Assembly (NCBI GenBank): GCA_001829495.1
Contig: MIBJ01000025.1
Location: 1 to 52,739, forward strand
Reading direction: 5' to 3'
DNA from: Spirochaetes bacterium RBG_16_49_21
GTDB lineage: Bacteria; Spirochaetota; UBA4802; UBA5550
DNA length: 52,739 nt
Shown here: positions 12,020 to 24,944 of the stretch, in pieces
How positions within the stretch are numbered: the first letter of the stretch is position 1
Layout: each line of letters opens with the position of its first letter
The notes under the pieces: model-generated
Told to the model about the DNA's origin: nothing
Databases searched by the model: none
What the model saw: the letters and a program-made list of their open reading frames with translations, nothing else
Program-made: the position numbers and the translations under genes

Positions 12020-12220
12020 TAATTACTCGAGTTAGGCGAATTTTGTTAAAAATCTCTTACTCCCTCCCCCCTACATGGGGGAGGGTTGGGGTGGGGGTGA
12101 TTAATGTATGGCGTATAGGTTACTTTTGTACGCCAAAAACATCTATTTCACCCTCCCCTCACCCCTCCCATCAAGGGAGGGGACTGCTTTAATTAAAAAT
12201 CGCCTAACTCAAGTTAATTA
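12020..12220. mobile_element. MITE-like palindromic element, G/C-rich repeat family A with terminal inverted repeats
   Basis: The 201-bp element is bounded by imperfect terminal inverted repeats: TAATTACTCGAGTTAGGCGA at 12020-12039 and its near reverse complement at 12200-12220 (one inserted base, one mismatch). Inside are a G/C-rich arm CCCTCCCCCC-N4-GGGGGAGGG followed by GGTTGGGGTGGGGGTGA, a loop with GGCGTA and TACGCC, and a second arm ending GGGAGGGGA. The same inner arms recur at 24852-24944 and, as a half, at 16676-16714. It carries no gene. Non-autonomous transposition is inferred from the terminal repeats. Confidence 0.6.
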
Positions 12221-12770: not shown

Positions 12771-13433
12771 ATGAGCGGCAATACGGTGAAAATCATCCTC
12801 GTGGACGACCATCCGCTGGTCAGGCAGGGACTGAAAAAGGTCATAGAGAAGGAACAGGACCTGGCCGTAATACAAGAAGCCGGCAGCGCCGAAGAGGCGC
12901 TACGGCTCATCAACAGGAAGGAGCCGGACCTGGCGATAATCGACATCTCCCTCGAAGGAGAGGCCAACGGTCTTGATCTCGCCAAAGCTCTACGAGAGCG
13001 ATACGGCTCCATCAAGATATTGGTGCTTTCAATGCATGATGAGAACGTCTATGCGGAACGCGCGCTCCGGGCAGGCGCGCGCGGCTATGTCGCCAAAAAA
13101 GAAGCCCCGGGGGTCATCATCGAGGCGGTACGGACCGTTATGAGGGGAGAGCTTTACCTGAGCGGCAGGACTTCCATGAAGATCATCGACCGCCTGTTTC
13201 AGGGAAAGGAGATGTCCGCGGAATCGATAACGGAGGTGCTCTCGGACCGCGAGCTGGAGATTTTTCAGTTGATCGGCAGCGGCATGGGCACCGGGGATAT
13301 CGCCAAAACGCTCAATATAAGCGTGAACACCATTGAAAGCCACCGGAAAAAAATAAAAGAAAAACTGGGGATTGACAAGGGTACGGAGCTGGTCAAGACC
13401 GCGGTGCAGTGGGCGGTGACCCGGAAGGTATGA
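12771..13433 (+). CDS. NarL/FixJ-type response regulator with LuxR helix-turn-helix
   Basis: The product is 220 residues. The receiver domain (1-125) has the VDDHP acidic pair, Asp in IIDIS and Lys in AKKEAP. The C-terminal LuxR-type DNA-binding domain (about 150-215) shows LSDRELEIFQLIGSGMGTGDIA, then LNISVNTIESHRKKIKEKLG (segments abutting). It would bind DNA as a phosphorylated dimer. No histidine kinase is adjacent, so it is an orphan here. It is the intact paralogue of the receiver-only gene at 11509. Start chosen from the paralogue alignment. Confidence 0.92.
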   Translation: MSGNTVKIILVDDHPLVRQGLKKVIEKEQDLAVIQEAGSAEEALRLINRKEPDLAIIDISLEGEANGLDLAKALRERYGSIKILVLSMHDENVYAERALRAGARGYVAKKEAPGVIIEAVRTVMRGELYLSGRTSMKIIDRLFQGKEMSAESITEVLSDRELEIFQLIGSGMGTGDIAKTLNISVNTIESHRKKIKEKLGIDKGTELVKTAVQWAVTRKV

Positions 13434-13458
13434 ACTGCCGCAATGCCGGCAGCCGCGA

Positions 13459-15273
13459 TCACCGCACGCCCTGAATTTGAAGCGCTTTGTCGAAGGATAT
13501 GACCGCGTCATAGGTAATTTCAGCCTTTGCCCCGGCCCCCAGATCAAGCTTCCATTTACGGATACCCTGGGCGTAGCGCGTGGTCTTTTCGAACTGCTCG
13601 TCCTTTAAAAATTGGTGCGACAGGTTTTTGACCTCCGCGTCGATCTTTTCGTTCCGCGACAACGGCAGGGCGTCGTGCACGAACACTTCAATGCCGCGGG
13701 GGAGACGGTTCTCGACCGTGAGCTTATAGCGGTAAAGGATTCTCCGCTTGCCCCTCAGCAGGCCCGCGGCGTCCTCATACTTTTTGACGAGCTCCTTCTT
13801 CGCGGCGATGCGCGATTCAATGCCCAGGATAATCTCCTCCGCCATGTCCGGCGCTACCGCCGGCATGGCGGCCTTGCCCATGAACTCGTTGTCAAGGAAG
13901 ATCTGAGCCTCGCCGGCAAGCCAGGGAAGTCCGGTGGTGTTCCGGACCGCCGCCTTGAGGTAGGCGCTGGGCACGTCTGCGGGGATCGCCTCATAAAAGA
14001 AGCGCGGAGCGCTCCCTTTTTCAAGACGGAATTCGCGTATGAACTTCTTCTGGTATTTGGCGGACGAGGCGATGTTCAGTCTTCCCGGGAAGCTGATTTC
14101 AAAATAGGGTCCTTTTTCGCGTATCTCGGTTTCATCAGGCTGGAGCCGGTCCATGTCCGCTTTGCTGATCGCCTTCTTTTTCGCCGTTTTTCGCTCCGCT
14201 GCCGCGCCTTCGCCGTAGTCCAGTGCCTCGCTCCGCGAGGGAGCCGCAATATCGAGGTACCAGGGTTTGAGGCCCGGGGGGCTAATGGCGCTCGCCGGCG
14301 CGCCGGTGGAAAAAGAGAGCATGATATCCTCCCAGTTCTCGCCGGTCATCTGGTAGACGTTGCCGTACACGAAGAGCCCGATCCGCTTCTCCGCGCTGTC
14401 GGCGCGCACGTCGTACTTCATCTCCCAGGAGGTGTTCGGTATGACGTAGGTAAAGCTGAAGTCCGCCTCGCCTGGCGCGGGCGTATTTATCTCCACCGCC
14501 AGGCGCTTCTCGATATCCACCTTTTCCGTCGGATTTTTAAGAATTCTTGTCCGCTCCGCGTAACGATCCGATATATCGGCGAACTGCTGGATCTGCATTG
14601 CCGCCCGATTCGTCAGAATGGCGGTATTGAGCGAGCGATAGGTGCTGAAATAGGAGGTGCCGGCGATCTGGGAAAGCTCGAATTCCCATTTCTGGATATT
14701 CTTGCCGATAGTCTCGCGCTCCCGTTCGATCTCCCTCTTTCTGGCGAGGAGGCTCTTTCTCTTTCCCGCAGTGTAGGTGAGCGTATTGTCCCAGACCTTC
14801 GCATCGGGGATACGGGTCATGAGCTCCTTGGATACCGTCTGGTTGGTGAAGTCCATTATTGAATCGAGGAACTTTTCCTGCGACTGGATGATCTTGAGCT
14901 CGTCCACAAAGAACTGATCCCGTTCCCTGAGGGCCTTGAGCCGGTCTTCTATATCAAGAATCTCCTTACGTTTTTTCTTCACGAGCGCCTTCTTCACCAC
15001 CTCCAGGGATACGATCGATCCGGTAAAGTTACGGGGCAGGCTGCCGCGCACCGACCAATCGTACAAAAGCGGCGGCAGGCTCCCCAGGGTTATGCGGTTC
15101 ATTCCCTCTTTAAACCGAAGACGCACCGTGCGGGTTATGGCAGCCTGGTTCTGGTAGAGCTTCACGGCCGTGATTCTGCTCGACAGCGCCTTTTCCTCAG
15201 AATCGTCTGCGCCTGCCGCGCTGTACCAGAGGCCGGCTATAACACAGAATACCATCATGAACGTTCGTTTCAT
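13459..15273 (-). CDS. Exported DUF4139 (mucoidy inhibitor MuiA-like) protein
   Basis: The product is 604 residues with a signal peptide (MKRTFMMVFCVIAGLWYSAAGADD, cleavage expected near residue 22). The N-terminal part ITAVKLYQNQAAITRTVRL is typical of the DUF4140 region. It is followed by a coiled-coil (about 90-260) rich in Lys, Glu and Arg, then DUF4139 with FSFTYVIPNTSWEMKYDVRAD and NWEDIMLSFSTGAP. Function of this family is not established. It is convergent with the response regulator (25 bp apart) and divergent from the MarR gene. Confidence 0.85.
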   Translation of the reverse strand: MKRTFMMVFCVIAGLWYSAAGADDSEEKALSSRITAVKLYQNQAAITRTVRLRFKEGMNRITLGSLPPLLYDWSVRGSLPRNFTGSIVSLEVVKKALVKKKRKEILDIEDRLKALRERDQFFVDELKIIQSQEKFLDSIMDFTNQTVSKELMTRIPDAKVWDNTLTYTAGKRKSLLARKREIERERETIGKNIQKWEFELSQIAGTSYFSTYRSLNTAILTNRAAMQIQQFADISDRYAERTRILKNPTEKVDIEKRLAVEINTPAPGEADFSFTYVIPNTSWEMKYDVRADSAEKRIGLFVYGNVYQMTGENWEDIMLSFSTGAPASAISPPGLKPWYLDIAAPSRSEALDYGEGAAAERKTAKKKAISKADMDRLQPDETEIREKGPYFEISFPGRLNIASSAKYQKKFIREFRLEKGSAPRFFYEAIPADVPSAYLKAAVRNTTGLPWLAGEAQIFLDNEFMGKAAMPAVAPDMAEEIILGIESRIAAKKELVKKYEDAAGLLRGKRRILYRYKLTVENRLPRGIEVFVHDALPLSRNEKIDAEVKNLSHQFLKDEQFEKTTRYAQGIRKWKLDLGAGAKAEITYDAVISFDKALQIQGVR

Positions 15274-15383
15274 ATTCTCATTAGATGAATTCGCCGGGAA
15301 AAAGCAAGCTATTTTACCTCCGTCATTCAGAAATTCGAAGATTTTAAGTATTTAATTATTTTATAAATTTCTTATTTTTTTAC

Positions 15384-15455
15384 TTGACGACCAAACGGTT
15401 GCTGTATATATTTGCTACTAACAATAGTTGCGATAGGCAAATATATATGCCTATC
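15384..15455 (+). promoter_or_regulatory. Promoter and palindromic operator upstream of the MarR gene
   Basis: TTGACG (15384-15389), 17 bases, TATATT (15407-15412) is a strong sigma70-type promoter. Downstream, within the expected leader, lies a perfect 8-bp inverted repeat GATAGGCA-N8-TGCCTATC (15432-15455). A weaker dyad, GCTACTA/TAGTTGC, overlaps the probable start site. MarR proteins commonly repress their own operons through such dyads, so autoregulation of the downstream cluster is likely. Confidence 0.6.
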
Positions 15456-15478
15456 CCCCGGCGTCGCCAGTTTGGATT

Positions 15479-15934
15479 ATGAAATATAGTATTGTAGATA
15501 CGATCATGCTGTTGAACGAACAGTGCTGCCATTTAAACGAGCAGGACGCAGCCGAAAACAACCTGACCTCAAAGGAGATGCAGGTCCTGCTTTCACTCAA
15601 TCCGGAGGAGACCGTCTCGAGCGTTGATCTGGCGCAGCGTAACCTCCTTTCGCCTTCGCGGATGAGCCGGATCATCGACGGGCTTGTTTCCAAGGAATAC
15701 CTCAACCGTGAGACCGACGAGCATGACCGGCGGTACAGCCGGCTCTCATTAACGCCCGGCGGCATTAAAAAAAACAAGCATACAATGGAATTCAAAAAAC
15801 GGTGTGAGTCAAAAATAAAATCCAAATTGTCCGAGAATGAATTCGCCATTATTCAAAAGGCGCTGCGTCTGTTACTATTTTCCATGGAGGATGAGCATGG
15901 GATCAGCTTCACCGATTCAACTGGACACCATTAA
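15479..15934 (+). CDS. MarR-family transcriptional regulator with an N-terminal vicinal Cys pair
   Basis: The product is 151 residues. The winged-helix shows LTSKEMQVLLSL, the recognition helix LLSPSRMSRIIDGLV and the wing RETDEHDRRYSRLSLTPGG. The first helix carries NEQCCHLNEQ, a vicinal Cys pair (about residues 16-17) in the part of MarR proteins that forms the dimer interface and ligand pocket; this could sense thiol oxidation or a metalloid. It begins the cluster and overlaps the methyltransferase start by about 38 bp, so the two are translationally coupled. No clear ribosome-binding site precedes the ATG at 15479. Confidence 0.88.
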   Translation: MKYSIVDTIMLLNEQCCHLNEQDAAENNLTSKEMQVLLSLNPEETVSSVDLAQRNLLSPSRMSRIIDGLVSKEYLNRETDEHDRRYSRLSLTPGGIKKNKHTMEFKKRCESKIKSKLSENEFAIIQKALRLLLFSMEDEHGISFTDSTGHH

Positions 15935-16538
15935 TGAGCGCTACAGCGGCCTCGCACAGTCGAATTGCTGCCTTTCATGCGGCGGCGCGCTCAACTTCGC
16001 CGGTGTTTCGGCCGGCGAGGTTTGCATCGACCTGGGGAGCGGCCGGGGAACCGACGTTCTCCGCATGGCGGACAGCGCCGGCCCGGGCGGGTTCGCGTAC
16101 GGAATCGATGTATCCGACGGGATGCTTGAAAAGGCGCGGGAAAACGCCCGGAAATTCGGCGTATCCAATGTTCGCTTCATTAAATCCGAGCTGGAGGATA
16201 TCGGGCTGGATGACGGCGTCGCAGACGTGGTGATATCCAACTGCACTCTCAATCACGCGGAAAACAAACAGCGGGTATGGAAGGAAATCCACCGCATACT
16301 GAAAAAGGGCGGACGATTTGTCGTGAGCGACATCTATTCGACTGCCGATGTGCCGGAAGAATACCGGAACGATCCACAAGCGGTTGCCGAATGCTGGGCC
16401 GGGTCCGTAACCAGGGACGAGTACCTTCGAACGGTTACGGCCGCGGGATTCTCGGATATACGGATACTCGAAGAGAGCAAGCCCTATCCGAAAGGTAAAA
16501 TCGAGGTGGCGAGCTGGACGATAACGGCCCGAAAATAA
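15897..16538 (+). CDS. ArsM-like SAM-dependent methyltransferase
   Basis: The product is 213 residues from the ATG at 15897, which has GGAGG 6 bases upstream; an ATG at 15891 is the alternative. Motif I is VCIDLGSGRGTD, motif post-I GIDVSDGMLEKA, and VISNCTLNHAENK and KKGGRFVVSDIYS follow. The cysteine pattern is that of arsenite methyltransferases: an N-terminal SNCC pair (C24-C25) plus C28, the Cys of ISNC, and the Cys of AECWAGS. In ArsM these bind As(III). Methylation of arsenic or a similar thiophilic substrate is therefore likely; a peptide or selenium substrate is possible given the neighbours. It is followed by the putative peptide gene after 33 bp. Confidence 0.8.
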   Translation: MGSASPIQLDTINERYSGLAQSNCCLSCGGALNFAGVSAGEVCIDLGSGRGTDVLRMADSAGPGGFAYGIDVSDGMLEKARENARKFGVSNVRFIKSELEDIGLDDGVADVVISNCTLNHAENKQRVWKEIHRILKKGGRFVVSDIYSTADVPEEYRNDPQAVAECWAGSVTRDEYLRTVTAAGFSDIRILEESKPYPKGKIEVASWTITARK

Positions 16539-16571
16539 AACAAGGAATCAACAAAAAGGAGATATAACACC

Positions 16572-16667
16572 ATGAATACACTCATCAGGCAGAAGAGCGC
16601 CGAAAATCATACGGCCGCACAGTGCTGCGCAAAGATATCGTCTATCATTGCCGGCTGTCATGATTGA
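16572..16667 (+). CDS. Putative RiPP precursor peptide, 31 residues with CC and C motifs
   Basis: A short open frame with a strong Shine-Dalgarno (AAGGAGAT, 16556-16563) begins MNTLIRQKSAENHT and ends AAQCCAKISSIIAGCHD. It lies between a methyltransferase gene and a radical SAM/SPASM maturase, the classic place for a precursor. The Cys-rich C-terminal half would be the core and the polar N-terminal half the leader. It is too short for ordinary gene callers. The stop is TGA, and a hairpin-forming repeat starts 8 bases later. The coding call rests on the ribosome-binding site and context, not on homology. Confidence 0.6.
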   Translation: MNTLIRQKSAENHTAAQCCAKISSIIAGCHD

Positions 16668-16675
16668 GGGGATAC

Positions 16676-16714
16676 CTCCCTCCCCCTTGACGGGGGAGGG
16701 CTGGGGTGGGGGTG
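16676..16714. repeat. Half copy of G/C-rich repeat family A
   Basis: CCTCCCTCCCCC-TTGAC-GGGGGAGGG followed by CTGGGGTGGGGGTGA is the first arm of the family-A element (compare 12060-12100 and 24852-24890). Its hairpin lies between the peptide and maturase genes and could attenuate transcription, giving more peptide than enzyme. Confidence 0.6.
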
Positions 16715-16729
16715 AAAGGGGATTTGCTC

Positions 16730-18046
16730 ATGCATAGATTTTCACGATACAATATTATGGGGAAGATACGGGATTCAGAAAACTATTTTCTAATGAATCC
16801 CCTGACAAAAAGCGCGGATATCCTTGCGCCGGACAAGGCGCAGGAGATTATAAATAAAACCTACGCCGATACCGATGAGCTGTCCGCCAAGGGATACATC
16901 CTTGACCAGGCAGAAGAGGAGCGGCTGTACAAGCTTCGCTACCTTGATTTCCTTGAAGAGCGCGACTCGAACGAGGTCCAGATATTTTTTGTACCGTGGT
17001 ATGAGTGCAATTTTTCCTGTTCCTACTGCTACCAGGAGGGATATTCCCGCGAGCATAAGCCATTGACCGAGGAGGTCATTAATGCCTTTTTTGATTATAT
17101 CACCCGCGAATTCGCCGACAAGAAAAAATATATCACCCTGTTCGGCGGCGAGCCGCTCCTTGCCGGGAGCGGCGCCCGGCCGCGTATCCAACAGATTGTC
17201 ACGCAAGCTGCGGAGCGCGGCATCGCAATAGCGATAGTCACCAACGGCTATAACCTTTACGACTACCTTGAGGTGCTGTCGCGGGGCGTGATCCGCGAGA
17301 TACAGGTGACGTTGGACGGAACGCGGCCGAAGCATGACGGCCGCCGCTTCTTAAAAAACGGGGCGCCTACGTTCGACCGCATCGTGGCCGGCATCGACGG
17401 GGCGCTTGAGCGGCACTTCCCGGTCAACCTCCGCATGGTCGTAGACCGGGACAATATTGATGATCTTCCCGGCCTGGCCGCCTTTGCCATTGACAGGGGA
17501 TGGACGAAAAACCCGCTCTTCAAGACGCAGATAGGCCGGAACTACGAGCTCCACCGGTGCCAGGCCGACAACAAGCGGCTCTTCGACCGGGCGGGCCTGT
17601 ACGAGAAATTATACCGTATCATACAGGAACATCCTCATTTCCTTGAATTCCACCGGCCCTCCTTTTCGGTCTCCCGTTTTCTGTTCGATAATGGGGAACT
17701 GCCGCTGCCGCTTTTCGATTCATGCCCCGGATGCAAGAGCGAATGGGCCTTCGACTACACGGGAAGAATCTATCCCTGCACCGCGACTGTCGGGAAGGAG
17801 GGAGAGGAAGTCGGAAGCTTCTATCCGGAGGTCTACAAGCGGGACGATATCATCCGTGAGTGGGAGTCGCGCGATGTGACCTCGATCCCGGAATGCGCCG
17901 GGTGCGGCATGCAGCTCGTGTGCGGCGGCGGATGCGGGTCAGTGGCGAAGAACAGGACCGGAAAACTGCATTCCCCCGACTGCCGGCCGGTCCAACCTCT
18001 GCTGGAGATGGGAATATCGCTCTATTTCAACAAGGGAAAAATTTAA
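16730..18046 (+). CDS. Radical SAM/SPASM peptide maturase
   Basis: The product is 438 residues from the ATG at 16730 (AAGGGGA about 9 bases upstream); an in-frame GTG at 16706 lies within the repeat and is unlikely. The radical SAM cluster motif is CNFSCSYC (C93-x3-C97-x2-C100), followed by LFGGEPLL and IVTNGYNL. The first 90 residues resemble the leader-peptide-recognition region of such maturases. The C-terminal SPASM domain is complete: CPGC, YPCTATVG, then CAGCGMQLVCGGGCGSVAK and a last Cys in SPDC, enough for two auxiliary Fe-S clusters. SPASM enzymes modify ribosomal peptides, for example by thioether formation at Cys, which fits the neighbouring Cys peptide. Confidence 0.9.
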   Translation: MHRFSRYNIMGKIRDSENYFLMNPLTKSADILAPDKAQEIINKTYADTDELSAKGYILDQAEEERLYKLRYLDFLEERDSNEVQIFFVPWYECNFSCSYCYQEGYSREHKPLTEEVINAFFDYITREFADKKKYITLFGGEPLLAGSGARPRIQQIVTQAAERGIAIAIVTNGYNLYDYLEVLSRGVIREIQVTLDGTRPKHDGRRFLKNGAPTFDRIVAGIDGALERHFPVNLRMVVDRDNIDDLPGLAAFAIDRGWTKNPLFKTQIGRNYELHRCQADNKRLFDRAGLYEKLYRIIQEHPHFLEFHRPSFSVSRFLFDNGELPLPLFDSCPGCKSEWAFDYTGRIYPCTATVGKEGEEVGSFYPEVYKRDDIIREWESRDVTSIPECAGCGMQLVCGGGCGSVAKNRTGKLHSPDCRPVQPLLEMGISLYFNKGKI

Positions 18047-18057
18047 AAGCCATCTAC

Positions 18058-18170
18058 ATCTCCCCGACCTCACCCCCCCTGCCCCCCTCTCCAAATTGGA
18101 GAGGGGGGTATAATTAAGCCTTATGCACCCCCCTCTTATTAAGGAGAAGGGGGGATGAGGTCGGGGAGAT
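18058..18170. repeat. Palindromic repeat family B, copy 1
   Basis: The 113-bp unit is bounded by perfect 15-bp inverted repeats ATCTCCCCGACCTCA, each extended by a C or G run. Inside are two hairpins, including CCCCCCTCTCC-N4-GGAGAGGGGGG. A related, more divergent copy is at 26933-27080. It sits between the maturase and thioredoxin reductase genes and could also serve as a terminator or RNA-stabilising structure. Confidence 0.6.
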
Positions 18171-18198
18171 TAATAAACAGTCTCAAAGGAGAGGCAAT

Positions 18199-19491
18199 AT
18201 GTCAGGTAAAATAATTTATATTAATTCATCACAGTATGAAAGCGAGGTTTTAAAAGGCGGCACGGTGGTCGTTGATTTTTATTCGAGCGAGTGCCCGCCC
18301 TGCGAGGCCCTGGCTGCGAAATTCGAGCCTCTGAGCGGGATATACGGCGGCGACGTCAGATTCATCAAGATATTCCGTCAGGACAACCGGCCGCTTGCCG
18401 AGAAACTCGGGGTGCTCTCCTCTCCAACGGTCATTTTTTACAAGAACGGCGCCGAAGTCGGCGAACGCCTGATCGGCGGCATCAGGCGTTCGGACCTCGT
18501 AAAAAATCTCGAATTGCTCATACCCGAAGAACGCGCGGCCGAGCTGCGGGCGCTCGCAAAGCCCCTGACCACGGAATGCGACGTGCTCATCATCGGCGGC
18601 GGCCCCACGGGTCTCACCGCCGGGATCTACGCGGCCCAGGCCCGGCTGAAAACCATTCTCGTCGACCAGGCCCTTCCGGGAGGCCAGGTGAAAATCACGC
18701 ATCTGGTCTCAAACTATCCGGGATTTGAAAAGCCCGTTGAAGGATACATGCTTACGCACTTCATGACCGAGCAGGCCAAACACGCCGGCGTCGAATTCCG
18801 CCAGGCGGTTGAGGTAAGCGACGTCGACCTTGCTTCCAAGACCATCCTCGTCGACGGGTTTGAGACCGTCCGGGCGAAAAAAATCATCCTTGCCACCGGC
18901 TCCTCATACCGCGAGCTCAGCGTTCCCGGCGAGCTTGAATACAAGGGCAACGGCATATCATACTGCGCCACCTGCGATGCAAAGTATTACGACGACAGGG
19001 ACGTGGTGGTGATCGGCGGCGGCAACTCGGCGGTCGAAGAGTCGCTTTTCATAACAAAATTCGCCCGCACCGTCACCATCGTGCACCAGTTCGATAAATT
19101 GCAGGCGAACCGGGAAGCGCAGGAGCGGGCGTTCGCCAACGATAAGATACGGTTCATCTTCGAGCATGAACCGAGGGCTTTCGACAAGCGGCCCGACGGC
19201 GGCATGGACGTGACGATAGAAGACCTGAAAACCGGCGGCCGGAAAACGCTCCGCTGCGATGGAGTGTTCATCTTCGCCGGCATGAAACCGAACATCGAGC
19301 TCTTCAACGGCTCGCTTGCGCTCGACCGGTGGGGATATGTCGCAGCCGACGAATTTCTCCGGACAAACATCCCCGGCGTGTTCGCGGCCGGAGACATCCG
19401 GAGCAAACCCTACCGGCAGATCACGACCGCGGTCGCCGACGGCACCATAGCCGCCATTACCGCGATGAAAGAGCTGGAGAGCATCAATTGA
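18199..19491 (+). CDS. Thioredoxin-thioredoxin reductase fusion lacking the NADPH arginines
   Basis: The product is 430 residues with an AAAGGAGAGG ribosome-binding site. Residues 1-115 are a thioredoxin fold with active site ECPPCE (C32, C35). Residues about 125-430 are a low-Mr flavin thioredoxin reductase: IIGGGPTGLTAG (FAD), redox site CATC (C256, C259) and VVIGGGNSAVEE (nucleotide-binding Rossmann). The segment that normally reads HRRDxxRA and binds the NADPH 2'-phosphate is HQFDKLQA (296-303), so both arginines are gone. NADH, a reduced flavin or ferredoxin may be the donor. The order (thioredoxin first) is opposite to the mycobacterial fusion. It probably supplies thiol reduction to the upstream peptide/methyltransferase cluster. 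Confidence 0.9.
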   Translation: MSGKIIYINSSQYESEVLKGGTVVVDFYSSECPPCEALAAKFEPLSGIYGGDVRFIKIFRQDNRPLAEKLGVLSSPTVIFYKNGAEVGERLIGGIRRSDLVKNLELLIPEERAAELRALAKPLTTECDVLIIGGGPTGLTAGIYAAQARLKTILVDQALPGGQVKITHLVSNYPGFEKPVEGYMLTHFMTEQAKHAGVEFRQAVEVSDVDLASKTILVDGFETVRAKKIILATGSSYRELSVPGELEYKGNGISYCATCDAKYYDDRDVVVIGGGNSAVEESLFITKFARTVTIVHQFDKLQANREAQERAFANDKIRFIFEHEPRAFDKRPDGGMDVTIEDLKTGGRKTLRCDGVFIFAGMKPNIELFNGSLALDRWGYVAADEFLRTNIPGVFAAGDIRSKPYRQITTAVADGTIAAITAMKELESIN

Positions 19492-19514
19492 CCCGGTGAG
19501 TATGGGGTGGAATA

Positions 19515-19588
19515 GCTCTGACCCCAAATTCAGGGCTGAGACGATATCCCCAAAGTGCAAAATAGCAAAATAAGAGGCTCTGACCCCA
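19515..19588. repeat. RAYT-associated repeats GCTCTGACCCCA (two copies)
   Basis: GCTCTGACCCCA occurs at 19515-19526 and 19577-19588, upstream of the transposase gene. The inverted form TGGGGTCAGAGC is found just after that gene at 20271-20282 and in a cluster at 37789-37937. Such motifs are typical of REP elements mobilised by REP-associated tyrosine transposases. Confidence 0.7.
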
Positions 19589-19654
19589 TATTTTTTTAAC
19601 ATTCCTCCACCTACAAACGTATCTATAGTAAATACCCAGTATTAGGAGGAACCT

Positions 19655-20245
19655 ATGCCAAGACCTTTACGTAATGTTGCTCAGGGACTTACTCACCACA
19701 CGTACAGCAGATGCCACGGAAAGAGAAATCTTCTGCTTGGTAAATATGGAAGAAAATATTTCATCGAATCAATCAGGGAGTGCCAGGAGAGGTACGATTT
19801 TGAGCTCATCGCTGCCGAGATTGTCGCCAATCACATTCACCTTATCATTAAAACGAACAGGGATAAACAAACAATCTCCCGCATAATGCAGTATATTAAG
19901 GCCAGAATTGCAGAAAAATACAACCGGGCTACGGGGGAGACGGGTGCATTCTGGAATGAACGCTTCGGCTCCACGGTTATTGAGGAGGCGGAGAATCCAC
20001 CGGAGTATCTGTTATGGCTCTTATGGTATATTGGCTACAATCCTGTAAGGAAAGGCCTGTCACGAAACCCTCGCACCAATGATATCGGGTTCATAAACTG
20101 CTATCTCGACAGAAATCACATAATTCCCATAAAAATAACCCTGCATTATTTCTTCTTTAGGCTAGGCAATACCTTTGAAGACTGCGTGACAAGATTCTTA
20201 TTCTACGAAGAGGCCTATCTCAAGAGACTCGCGGTGTATTTTTGA
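19655..20245 (+). CDS. REP-associated tyrosine transposase (RAYT, IS200/Y1 family)
   Basis: The product is 196 residues preceded by AGGAGG (19645-19650). The HUH motif is NHIHLII (about residues 59-65) and the downstream Tyr lies in the IMQYIKARIAEKYNR helix; FWNERFGSTVIE and LWYIGYNPVRKGL are typical of the family. The N-terminal MPRPLRNV and HHTYSRCHGKRNLL also fit. It would cut and rejoin single-stranded DNA at palindromic REP ends. It is flanked by its candidate repeats on both sides, appears intact, and interrupts no gene. Confidence 0.9.
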   Translation: MPRPLRNVAQGLTHHTYSRCHGKRNLLLGKYGRKYFIESIRECQERYDFELIAAEIVANHIHLIIKTNRDKQTISRIMQYIKARIAEKYNRATGETGAFWNERFGSTVIEEAENPPEYLLWLLWYIGYNPVRKGLSRNPRTNDIGFINCYLDRNHIIPIKITLHYFFFRLGNTFEDCVTRFLFYEEAYLKRLAVYF

Positions 20246-20270
20246 TGGATATCGATGATAGAAGATAGAA

Positions 20271-20282
20271 TGGGGTCAGAGC
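20271..20282 (+). repeat. RAYT-associated repeat TGGGGTCAGAGC, inverted copy
   Basis: It is the reverse complement of the two copies upstream of the transposase, so the gene lies between inverted copies. It is only 14 bp from the end of the helicase gene. Confidence 0.7.
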
Positions 20283-20295
20283 CAATATCGTTTTT

Positions 20296-23200
20296 TTAAT
20301 ACCTCTTCCACAGCTCAAGGCCCTTGTACGCGGCCCTGAATCCGAAATCGACCAGGGCATCGCGGTATTCGCTGGCCGGCGCGGCAGTATCGTTGATTTT
20401 TTCCACGAAAACTTTTTTAAGGGGATTGAAATCGCGGGACAGCACTATCTTAAAAAGCTCCAGGCTCTCATGAAAACGGGGATGGCCGGGCGGGATATGG
20501 AAACGCAATTCCTTTCCATTTCTGAATGACTCAAGCAGAATCCGCCTCCCCTTAACGACCAGATGAGTGGAACCGACCCGGCGCGGCAATCTCCCCTTGA
20601 GGCTCTCGAGCCGCTTCCCGCAGAGAGAGGCCGGATCTTTCGCGTTCAGCCACCAGACTGCCTCCTCATCCAGCCCCTCTCGTAAAAATCGGAACGCCTC
20701 AAAGGAGATGAACTGCACGCCGGGGATGCCCTCGAAAAAATAGCCGCTCATGATCTCTCCGGAGAGCTCCATGAGGCGGAGGATCGGAAACATCTTTTTC
20801 CACTGCATCGCGGCCGACTCATTATCCAGAAGCTCGCGGAAAAGAATGCCGTAGCGGTCAAAAAGGACCCTCGCGCGCTCCTTTTCGAGCTCCTGCCGGT
20901 CTATCCGGTCCAACTCAACCGGCAATACGTCCAGTATCCGCCAGTACCCCTGTAGCGGACGACTTGTGCTCCATCTGCTGATTCCCGGCCGCCTTATTCC
21001 GAATCTCGCTCGTTGTCCCCCCGCATCAAATCCTACCGGCTCAAAGTCGTTCAGTATCCCTTTGCGCAGGGTTTCCATGGAATCGTTCGCAATGGCCGAT
21101 CTCCAGGCGAGATCCCAGAGCGTCCCGGTCGCCTCCTCAATGCTCAGATTCGCGTGCCGGGTAATATCGAACAGGTTGTATCTTCCCCGGGCGTCCGGAA
21201 AAAGAAGCCGCGCCTTTTCAACATCCTTTTTATGGGCTTCGATGAAAATCCCGATCTCGGCATCCAGGGCAAAGGCCGTCATTCCCTTGCCCGAGCCGAA
21301 CCATAACAACGGCGTTGAATTTAAAAGGCTGTCCAGCCATGCAAACTGATAATTCCGCATGCGCGCAGGAAGGATATCCTCCTCCCACAGGGAAGCGTCG
21401 GCGGCAAAGCCGAAAAGCTTCTCAAGCCGCGCTTGAAGATCGTCGATTGTCTCACCGGGCCGCGCAACCCCCTGATAGGAGGCAAGAAAAAGGGGCAGAT
21501 AATCAACGGACAAAGCCTTGAAAGAGGGCTGCCGGTCCAGGCGCGCCATTCTAAGAAGCCGCTCAAGGTTATCCGCATGGCAGACTTCCTCGGATTCGCT
21601 CCTTTCCAGAATTGCGTCAACAATTATGCGGCCTTGCCCCGCCAGATCCTCCAGCAGAGCGTTCAGCCCGCTTCCACGGATTCCCAGATATTCTTCTATC
21701 CGGCTTCGGAGGACCGGCCCATAGTAGGAAAGCCACTGGACAAAGAACTCAGACAGGTCCATTCCGCTTTCAATACTCCTCTCTTTTTGCAATGCGGGGA
21801 CCGCGCCATCCCCTGCATTCTCTACATTAAAAAGCCTTGTTATGAGCGGCATATTTTCCAGGGCGACCGCATGCCGTACCGGGCTTCCCTTCAGCTTGAT
21901 GAAGGCTATTTTTTTCTGAATGGCCTCAGGGAGGGGTTCCGGGAAATCGGACGAGTCCCTCCGGCATGCGGCAAGGAGCCGCACCCACTCACCCTCGGGG
22001 ATAAGAAGACGCTCCTTGAGCCAGTCCAGAACCTCCTGGGGGAGTGCAGGCGCATACCCTGCCTTGGTGCGCTGGAGCCGGGCTTCAAGCTCTTCTGCCA
22101 GCCGCTCCGGGATGCGCGGCCGCAGCCGCGAAGAGTAAAGAACCTCATCCAGTATAGTGCGGCTCAGGTTGGAGATGCCCCGGCTTTCAGGGGTATCGTC
22201 CGCATACATGTATTTATTGGTCTGCCGCCAGATCAGGTTCTCACAGAAGGGGGACGGAGCGTCATTCGTCACCTCGATCAATTCAATCCGGCCGGAATTG
22301 AGCTCATCGAGCACCGGGATGAGATTATCCAGGTCGAAGGCGTCCTGAAAACACTCACGCCATGTTTCGAGGAGGATGGGAAAATCGGGATAGCGTGCAA
22401 TGGTTTCCATCAGCTTTTTTGAGCGAAGCCTGTTCAGCCAGAGCGGAAAGCGCCGGTGTAAACTTGCACGGGGAAGAAGCAGGGCGCGCGCTGCGTTCTC
22501 CCTGAATTTAGCGCCGAAAAATCCTGAAGTCTCCAGGCGCTTGCGCAAAAGCTCACGGAGATTTTCAGGCGTAACCATCCGGATAGCTTCCTGCACGGAT
22601 ACGTCGTCCGGCAGAATCAGGAGGATATTGGCGTCGCTCACGAAAATCTCAAGCTGCGCGTTATAGCGCTCCTCCCAGGCTGCCGCAAGAGCCATTGCAA
22701 AGGGTCGGTTGAGACGTCCGCCCCAGAAGGTATGCAGCACGGTTTCGCGACTGTCCGGACCGCCGCTTCCGCCGCGATAGTGCTCGATGATGATCCGGCG
22801 GCGGTGCGGAAGCTTTCCCTCAGAAGCCTCTTTTTGGCGCTGCAAAAATTCAACAAGGGCATCGGCTGCCCTCCTGGTCATCGAATACTTCTCTTCAAGC
22901 TTTTGCGTGAATTTTTCCGGGTCCGACAGCTCCTCGTCCGCTTCCTTTAAAAAAGACAGAATTCTCTCCGAATAATAAAAATCTCGGTCGAAGGCCTCCG
23001 CCTTCCAGAAAGGGACCATTCCGGCTGCGGCCTGAAGCGGAACGACTTCAACGTCGTTGTGCGTGATATTCCGGATCCGCCATATCTGCGTTCCCAGGGT
23101 AAAGGCGTCTCCGATCCTCCGCTCCCACACGAATTCCTCGTCCAGCTCGCCGATCTTCGCCCGGGTATCCTGGACCCGTAAGCTGTAATATCCCCGATCC

Positions 23201-24851: not shown

Positions 24852-24944
24852 CGCCCTCCCCCTTGAGGGGGGAGGGCTGGGGTGGGGGTGAAAAAAGTTA
24901 GCGCTCTAATCACCCTCCCCTACCCCTCCCATCTAGGGAGGGGA
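24852..24944. repeat. G/C-rich repeat family A, full core copy
   Basis: Arm 1 is GCCCTCCCCCTTGAGGGGGG then AGGGCTGGGGTGGGGGTGA; arm 2 is TCACCCTCCCC followed by TACCCCTCCCATCTAGGGAG and GGGA, separated by about 20 bases. The inner arms match the element at 12020-12220, but the 20-bp terminal repeats seen there are absent here. Confidence 0.65.

Follow-up and report, generated by a model that had tools for sequence, protein, structure and literature searches.

A short cysteine-containing peptide, a radical SAM/SPASM maturase and an ArsM-type methyltransferase are encoded together, in most cases with a thioredoxin-thioredoxin reductase (Trx-TrxR), in loci that span at least six phyla, including Spirochaetota, Bacteroidota and Myxococcota. 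These genes are predicted, almost certainly, to form a RiPP-type system, and the ribosomal peptide is very probably matured by this radical SAM enzyme. Our reading of the whole, which is tentative, is of a RiPP that stays within the cell, where its end with three cysteines acts together with the ArsM-type enzyme and Trx-TrxR keeps that end in the reduced state; the peptide would probably serve as a thiol carrier that binds metalloids.

The window, meaning the whole stretch of DNA analysed, comprises 52,739 nt of Spirochaetes bacterium RBG_16_49_21 (GCA_001829495.1, contig MIBJ01000025.1, forward strand). A sequence-only reading had described five genes running in one direction, and all five open reading frames are present on the plus strand between 15479 and 19491 (Table 1). 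Rfam gave no match at the gathering threshold over positions 13000-21000.

Table 1. Features of the locus, with positions in the window.
Feature	Position	Strand	Basis or remark
24-bp inverted repeat, candidate MarR operator (this window alone)	15432..15455	.	24 nt ahead of marR
MarR-family regulator, 151 aa; local, outside the conserved quartet	15479..15934	+	Pfam MarR_2
ArsM-type SAM methyltransferase, 215 aa; quartet member	15891..16538	+	NCBIfam, fold, alignment
Predicted precursor peptide, 31 aa, MNTLIRQKSAENHTAAQCCAKISSIIAGCHD; quartet member	16572..16667	+	Conserved in family loci
C-terminal 16-residue conserved core AQCCAKISSIIAGCHD	16617..16664	+	Comparison of 79 cores
Radical SAM/SPASM peptide maturase, 438 aa; CxxxCxxC and eight more conserved Cys; quartet member	16730..18046	+	
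Trx-TrxR fusion, 430 aa; quartet member	18199..19491	+	NCBIfam and Pfam domains

A match to the maturase was found in 86 regions, of which 80 loci were counted after exclusions. Four regions (L074, L075, L139 and L149) were not counted, since 300 of their maturase bases are identical to L007, L006, L138 and L034 respectively, two (L116 and L117, 27-28% identity, lacking the quartet) were kept apart as an outgroup, and the regions of matching genomes G032, G057, G061, G074 and G976 lie outside the counts. L139 comes from a different genome; its contig stops 116 nt ahead of the maturase match, and neither peptide nor methyltransferase is seen there. The 80 maturases form a clade with full support against the two outgroup rows. 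Among 72,556 plasmid records searched at E 1e-30 there was a single distant match, at 28.4% identity.

An ArsM-type methyltransferase lies near the maturase in 79 of the 80 loci (one of these, L148, is a partial match), and a peptide frame is likewise found in 79. The thiol-reducing fusion of the sequence-only reading proved to consist of a thioredoxin (residues 5-104) and a thioredoxin reductase (residues 128-426), and Trx-TrxR matches occur in 67/80 loci, a count to which L087 contributes a disrupted remnant and L144 a Trx and a TrxR encoded separately. Nine of the 13 loci that lack Trx-TrxR have at least 3.2 kb on each side. Judged by gene neighbourhood, the conserved unit is a quartet of putative methyltransferase, peptide, maturase and, in those 67 loci, Trx-TrxR. 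The peptide is directly upstream of the maturase on the same strand in 77/79 loci; in L087 and L144 the frame has followed the cluster to different positions and strands. One locus, L034, has a maturase and no CCxK...GCxD-stop frame.

The peptide gene has a strong ribosome-binding site, as had been noted from the sequence, with AAGGAG ahead of the ATG. The 31-codon frame proves to be a genuine gene: the comparison fixed beforehand to refute it found the frame in the homologous maturase loci with coding-type substitutions. The short cysteine peptide expected just upstream in homologues is also there, with an A[QL]CC...GC pattern, and the family frames end in A[QL]CC[AST]Kx[STA]xxxxGCHD-stop (79/80 loci). 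The search pattern, CCxK...GCxD-stop at most 3 kb from the maturase, itself predetermines the stop and six positions of the 16-residue core; among the residues it leaves free, A1 is kept in 79/79 cores, Q2 in 78/79, A/S/T5 in 79/79, S/T8 in 78/79 and H15 in 79/79. The pattern occurs at no other place in 798,322 fetched bases of family loci and nowhere in 4,000,000 order-1 random bases. Mean entropy over the 79 cores is 0.50, 0.45 and 1.45 bits at codon positions 1, 2 and 3. The peptide frame is thus far above chance, with its amino acids fixed and its third codon positions varying.

The front of the peptide is variable and rich in lysine, and the C-terminal core is near-invariant. The core holds three cysteines (CC...C) and a Cys-His-Asp end. 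The peptide has no match in Pfam-A or NCBIfam.

The maturase matches Pfam Radical_SAM with 69.3 bits. Its CxxxCxxC motif is present in 32/32 aligned maturases and the SPASM-region cysteines in 30-32 of the 32. The enzyme has a radical SAM core, a SPASM-type cysteine-rich C-terminus and a predicted CteB-like fold. CteB is both the nearest solved fold to the predicted model (TM 0.66-0.69) and the best sequence match in the PDB (E 2.4e-20). The first 80 or so residues of the model show a strand-helix pattern and appear RRE-like by predicted secondary structure; Pfam gives no RRE family match for residues 1-80.

The maturase passes no NCBIfam cut-off. Membership of the selenobiotic/SbtM family (TIGR04082), in which a radical SAM maturase acts on a Cys/Sec peptide, had been raised as a possibility and was rejected, since the score is 32.1 bits where 350 are required. 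CteB is the SCIFF maturase (TIGR03974; PDB 5wgg, 5why), SCIFF being named for six cysteines, and it likewise combines radical SAM and SPASM domains beside a cysteine-containing peptide. The window maturase reaches 78.5 of the 425 bits required by the SCIFF maturase model, however, and its system differs in adding an ArsM-type enzyme and Trx-TrxR and in having three cysteines in the core. The two best NCBIfam matches, CefB (NF038107) and TIGR04463, score 147.4 and 122.1 bits, far under their cut-offs of 600 and 525, and the peptide lacks the Cys-every-fifth pattern. The ranthipeptide maturase PapB (NF047865) is among the three best matches, although at 112.3 bits it too is under its cut-off (340). 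According to PMC9413430, PapB forms thioethers between Cys and Asp and accepts CXnD motifs with n = 0-6, a range against which the Cys-His-Asp end of the core may be set. PapA carries six CX3D/E motifs (PMC9413430), whereas the core has none.

The methyltransferase was said in the sequence-only reading to carry the cysteine pattern of arsenite methyltransferases, and the arsenic-site cysteines of CmArsM are indeed kept. Cysteines align to CmArsM positions 72, 174 and 224 in 75/75, 76/77 and 77/77 of the rows that have a letter there, the lone exception being L148, a partial row. The alignment has 78 rows; L007 was dropped (its match lies in two frames), and the rows of L022, L058 and L148 are incomplete or poorly aligned. 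The 13 structures nearest to the model are all As(III) methyltransferases, and ArsM/AS3MT proteins (NF008823; PDB 4fsd, 5evj, 8xt7) provide its nearest folds and profile matches. The enzyme differs from them in scoring 193.8 bits, below the arsenite methyltransferase cut-off of 263 (NF008823), in its near-invariant link to a peptide and a maturase, and in its place in the tree (L022 excluded), where the family parts from five ArsM comparison rows on a 100/98 branch.

The arsinothricin cluster arsQML makes a small organoarsenical amino acid, and we know of no ribosomal peptide in it. Radical SAM and ArsM genes also stand together there, in an arsenic context (PMC8552651, in part). In the present family, the L087 quartet system lies within an ars island and a separate canonical ArsM adjoins it, which would make plain arsenite methylation by the system redundant in that locus. 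Acr3 is near the system in L017, and occurs in 2/80 flanks against about 0.19 expected; it was not seen in the other 78 fetched regions. Among Spirochaetota genomes, a TIGR00832 (Acr3) match at E 1e-20 is present in 27/36 with the maturase against 112/356 without it (Fisher p 5e-7), some of these matches being fragments or below the family cut-off, which 126/392 genomes exceed. This association was given no weight because it is confounded: in the window's own family nearly all genomes carry Acr3, whether they have the system (5/5) or lack it (13/15), related genomes are not independent, and some of the matches are weak. A metalloid role for the system is, on our estimate, slightly short of an even chance.

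In the proposed mechanism the maturase would bind the variable, lysine-rich front of the peptide and modify the core by radical chemistry, the likeliest outcome being a thioether or comparable bond at a conserved cysteine. The leftover cysteines of CC...C may then bind a soft, thiophilic species, for which As(III) is the best candidate. The peptide would hand the bound species to the ArsM-type enzyme, filling the role that glutathione has with other arsenite methyltransferases, and Trx-TrxR with NADPH would re-reduce the peptide and the methylated product. According to PMC12608789, AS3MT activity rises strongly with Trx/TR/NADPH, and complexes of arsenic with glutathione are given as substrates. 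That the matured peptide replaces glutathione as carrier ligand, the dedicated ArsM-type enzyme acting on peptide-bound As (or Sb or Se), Trx-TrxR recycling the peptide and an organoarsenical peptide possibly resulting, is a more speculative proposal that we hold as doubtful. Were it true, a RiPP-derived cofactor of detoxification chemistry would be common to at least six phyla. Should the cargo of the peptide be what the ArsM-type partner acts on, RiPP cofactors would be joined to metalloid methylation, and a ribosomal peptide, not glutathione, could present arsenic to a methyltransferase.

The peptide could itself be the methyl acceptor, the ArsM-type enzyme methylating a cysteine, the histidine or the C-terminal aspartate, with Trx-TrxR keeping thiols free; the product would then be cross-linked and methylated and would serve as a redox cofactor or signal, arsenic having no role. 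We consider this rather unlikely. It is favoured by a methyltransferase as constant as the peptide (79/80 each) and set on its own branch, by the scarcity of Acr3, by the canonical ArsM that L087 also carries, and by the invariant H and D of GCHD, which metal binding alone leaves unexplained; yet a peptide methylator would have no reason to keep the arsenic-site cysteine triad intact, the closest folds to the ArsM-type enzyme are all As(III) methyltransferases, and L087 has its ars island. It is less probable still that the peptide serves as a chaperone or buffer for metals or metalloids, or helps the methyltransferase to bind its substrate, and that the maturase acts on something else or adds only a minor change. 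The CC and third cysteine suit thiophilic ions, and conserved gene order (77/79) is all that ties the maturase to the peptide, but the two occur together in 79/80 loci, and both the fold and the family models place the maturase closest to peptide maturases.

Secretion is common among radical SAM/SPASM RiPPs, and a TonB-receptor gene follows the maturase in four related Bacteroidales loci. A secreted antimicrobial or signal of the usual kind is nevertheless improbable. Neighbour clusters of open reading frames of at least 65 aa in the fetched flanks include no recurrent exporter, protease or immunity gene, and with no protease or exporter recurring beside the quartet the product probably stays inside the cell. 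The core, whose sequence hardly changes between Spirochaetota, Bacteroidota and Myxococcota, does not resemble an antimicrobial under diversification and suggests a cofactor or carrier, not an antibiotic. Intracellular RiPP-derived cofactors made with radical SAM/SPASM enzymes are known in PQQ and mycofactocin; these have other precursors and partners, and against the mycofactocin model the window maturase scores 60.5 bits (cut-off 265). As for a chance frame beside the maturase, L034 with its maturase and no such frame is the one point in its favour, and presence in 79/80 loci, free third positions and movement with the cluster (L087, L144) make it scarcely credible.

No such peptide-maturase-ArsM system is described among the literature matches listed, judged by title and abstract start in a collection covering few subscription journals. 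The core strings AQCCAK, CCAKIS, CCAKTS and VAGCHD and the term 'selenobiotic' were not found in the literature searched, and matches to the shorter strings QCCAK, QCCSK, AGCHD, SGCHD and VGCHD are unrelated by title and abstract start. A study mining Bacteroidales RiPPs (PMC10352776) contains one methyltransferase and neither 'arsen' nor 'thioredoxin'; an article on RiPP methyltransferases (PMC11285071) contains no 'arsen', 'ArsM' or 'thioredoxin'.

The MarR gene had been counted as a member of the system. It is present in the window, but genes detected by similarity to it lie near only 13/80 maturases and are lineage-specific. No inverted repeat matching the candidate operator precedes MarR in 12 other loci, and a promoter-like 10-of-12 match at 15384-15412 is of a kind found at about chance level (5 found, 3.2 expected). 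The MarR protein itself scores 41.9 bits against Pfam MarR_2, above the cut-off of 27.

The RiPP-type system is real and widespread; its gene content, conservation, kinship and cysteine triad are shown. Judging by Pfam-A, NCBIfam and the literature searched, it is undescribed. The five genes that a sequence-only reading had proposed in the window are confirmed at their positions, all on the plus strand. Pfam and NCBIfam identify the four larger ones as a MarR regulator, an ArsM-like methyltransferase, a radical SAM protein and a thioredoxin-thioredoxin reductase (Trx-TrxR) fusion. The 31-residue peptide has no match in either database at E 1; the ribosome-binding site claimed for it is present, AAGGAG preceding the ATG.

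Coordinates of the system and of nearby or related features
Feature	Source	Position	Strand
MarR regulator	window	15479-15934	+
Methyltransferase	window	15891-16538	+
Precursor peptide	window	16572-16667	+
Radical SAM/SPASM maturase	window	16730-18046	+
Trx-TrxR fusion	window	18199-19491	+
Palindromic G+C-rich repeat and variants	window	16692-16714, 24868-24890, 12077-12099	
Long imperfect inverted repeat	window	18058-18170	
REP-associated tyrosine transposase-like gene	window	19655-20245	
Adjoining radical SAM genes (L158, L159)	own genome, G000:C37	6758-9575	
Small membrane-like protein	L013	4813-5058	
DUF1847 and DUF302 genes	L014	7323-7874, 9300-9707	

When genome contigs were scanned with the window maturase, 31 loci were found, with identities of 48-77%. 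A profile built from 32 maturases was used for a second search, in which the genome counts include seed genomes. It matched 36 of 392 Spirochaetota genomes, the window's own among them, 8 of 395 in the phylum to which the Bacteroidia record L026 belongs, 12 of 282 in that of L030 (labelled Myxococcota by the tree tool) and 5 of 150 in that of L034 (labelled Fibrobacterota by the same tool). Two of the eight in the phylum of L026 are L116 and L117, distant maturases set aside as an outgroup. Removal of four copies from the fetched regions left 82 distinct maturases, window included, of which 80 group in a clade with full support when L116 and L117 (248-257 bits) serve as the outgroup. Record titles place the loci in Spirochaetota, Bacteroidota, Ignavibacteriota, Margulisiibacteriota, Myxococcota and Fibrobacterota, and nearly all of their named records are metagenome-assembled. 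One genome, G981, has methyltransferase, peptide, maturase and fusion (the quartet) in three copies on three contigs (L134, L135, L136), the peptides having long fronts that differ in sequence.

The short Cys peptide that the sequence-only reading proposed to look for at homologous maturases was found, as a CCxKx(4-8)GCxD-stop frame within 3 kb of the maturase, in 79 of the 80 loci. This frame occurs nowhere else in their 798,322 bases, nor in 4,000,000 order-1 random bases, in L116 and L117 or in L002-L005, the loci of further radical SAM genes in the own genome. The peptide lies upstream of the maturase on the same strand in 77 of the 79, at a median of 76 nt from the start of the maturase match (range 8 to 415). 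L087 and L144 carry it on the opposite strand, at another place in the cluster; it is therefore an independent gene travelling with the system. The 16-residue C-terminal core consists of A (79 sequences), Q (78), C, C, A/S/T and K (79 each), a variable position, S/T (78), four variable positions, then G, C, H and D (79 each); among these, CC, K, GC and D, like the stop codon, were set by the search pattern itself. The frame also follows a coding pattern, entropy over the 79 cores being 0.50, 0.45 and 1.45 bits at codon positions 1, 2 and 3, so selection acts on the protein sequence of the peptide. The front is variable and often Lys-rich, with MKSLIKKK a common start; the L006 peptide has an additional CC motif. 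The sole locus lacking the peptide, L034, also lacks the methyltransferase and the fusion nearby; at E 1e-25 its genome has a single methyltransferase match, to an ArsM-like gene that is more distant (139.8 bits). The L034 maturase (48% identity) adjoins a MarR gene.

Within 4.5 kb of the maturase, 79 of the 80 loci have the methyltransferase, 67 a Trx-TrxR match and 13 a gene resembling the window's MarR. Trx-TrxR is missing from 13 loci, nine of which have 3.2 kb or more of flank on each side (L027, L028, L029, L031, L032, L034, L138, L147, L148). The own genome has three further TrxR-like genes, at 34-41% identity, and the fusion is therefore probably a dedicated one. No neighbour cluster other than those of maturase, methyltransferase and Trx-TrxR occurs in more than 11 of the 80 loci. 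This count covers ORFs of at least 65 residues in the fetched flanks and relies on mechanical gene calls, which break down in some loci of high G+C content. Neither a protease nor an exporter was seen to recur among these clusters. In L027-L029 and L032 (related Bacteroidales, CSSed sediment records, without Trx-TrxR) TonB-receptor and DUF5074-type genes follow the maturase. A small membrane-like protein with a GCxSGxCxITS motif is near the system in 11 loci; the L013 example has no match in Pfam or NCBIfam. DUF1847 and DUF302 genes adjoin the quartet in L014, and their clusters occur in 6 and 10 loci.

The arsenite-methyltransferase Cys pattern noted earlier holds across the family: Cys stands opposite positions 72, 174 and 224 of the As(III) methyltransferase CmArsM, numbered from the profile-to-PDB alignment, in 75/75, 76/77 and 77/77 rows. 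We take these three to be the arsenic site; the titles of two matched PDB entries name C72A and C224A. CmArsM structures head the profile search of the PDB (E about 1e-28), and the best 13 fold matches of the model (mean pLDDT 83.1, low around the CC motif) are all As(III) methyltransferases from two algae and human. In the tree, 77 methyltransferase rows lie on one side of a 100/98 branch (bootstrap unsettled) and five ArsM rows opposite: CmArsM, L087's canonical ArsM, and three labelled ArsM only by 55-57% identity to the latter. The enzyme is thus an ArsM relative that retains the metal site but has an identity of its own.

L087 is an ars island with an ArsR-type gene, a DsbD-like gene, the methyltransferase, the maturase, Trx-TrxR remnants, an ArsC-like gene (127.8 bits against a curated cut-off of 174.3), Acr3 (437.2 against 282.8), a canonical ArsM (281.5 against 263) and a second ArsR-type gene. 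The additional canonical ArsM argues against plain redundancy. Acr3 (465.4 against 282.8) also lies about 6 kb from the maturase start in L017, and in none of the remaining 78 fetched regions; two in 80 compares with about 0.19 expected if each 4.2-Mb genome has one Acr3 (P about 0.016).

The window maturase falls well under the NCBIfam cut-offs, its top matches being CefB (147.4 against 600), TIGR04463 (122.1 against 525) and PapB (112.3 against 340), and the L102, L094 and L116 maturases behave likewise. Membership of the selenobiotic family (TIGR04082), which the sequence-only reading had raised, was rejected at 32.1 bits against 350. L158 and L159 fit that model better (87.3 and 60.2 bits), yet also remain below its cut-off. 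The AlphaFold2 model (32 rows, mean pLDDT 90.3) is closest in fold to CteB, then to SuiB, anSME and ChlB; the rmsd is high, so the domains may be arranged differently. Predicted secondary structure suggests that residues 1-80 may be RRE-like. CteB forms gamma-thioethers to Thr (PMC10352776) and PapB forms Cys-Asp thioethers, CXnD with n = 0-6 (PMC9413430); the core here has S/T four residues past the second Cys and ends Cys-His-Asp. By kinship with CteB and PapB, thioether formation would be the likeliest chemistry.

Trx/TR/NADPH strongly increases AS3MT activity, and arsenic-glutathione complexes are among the substrates cited (PMC12608789), which suggests that the quartet shares one logic, that of a thiol carrier, a methyltransferase and a reductase. 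The core would be cross-linked, the product would stay intracellular with a metalloid as its cargo, and recycling would run through Trx-TrxR.

The 62-nt spacer between peptide and maturase in the window contains one copy of the G+C-rich palindromic repeat (GGGGGAGGGCTGGGGTGGGGGTG and variants). With one mismatch or fewer, this repeat has 42 sites in the own genome, against none for the reversed control. Between maturase and Trx-TrxR lies an inverted repeat with 28-nt arms (89%) and a second hairpin within. Neither repeat is taken as part of the system. The transposase-like gene directly behind the operon (64.6 bits against 80; Pfam Y1_Tnp above cut-off) may be connected with the repeats.
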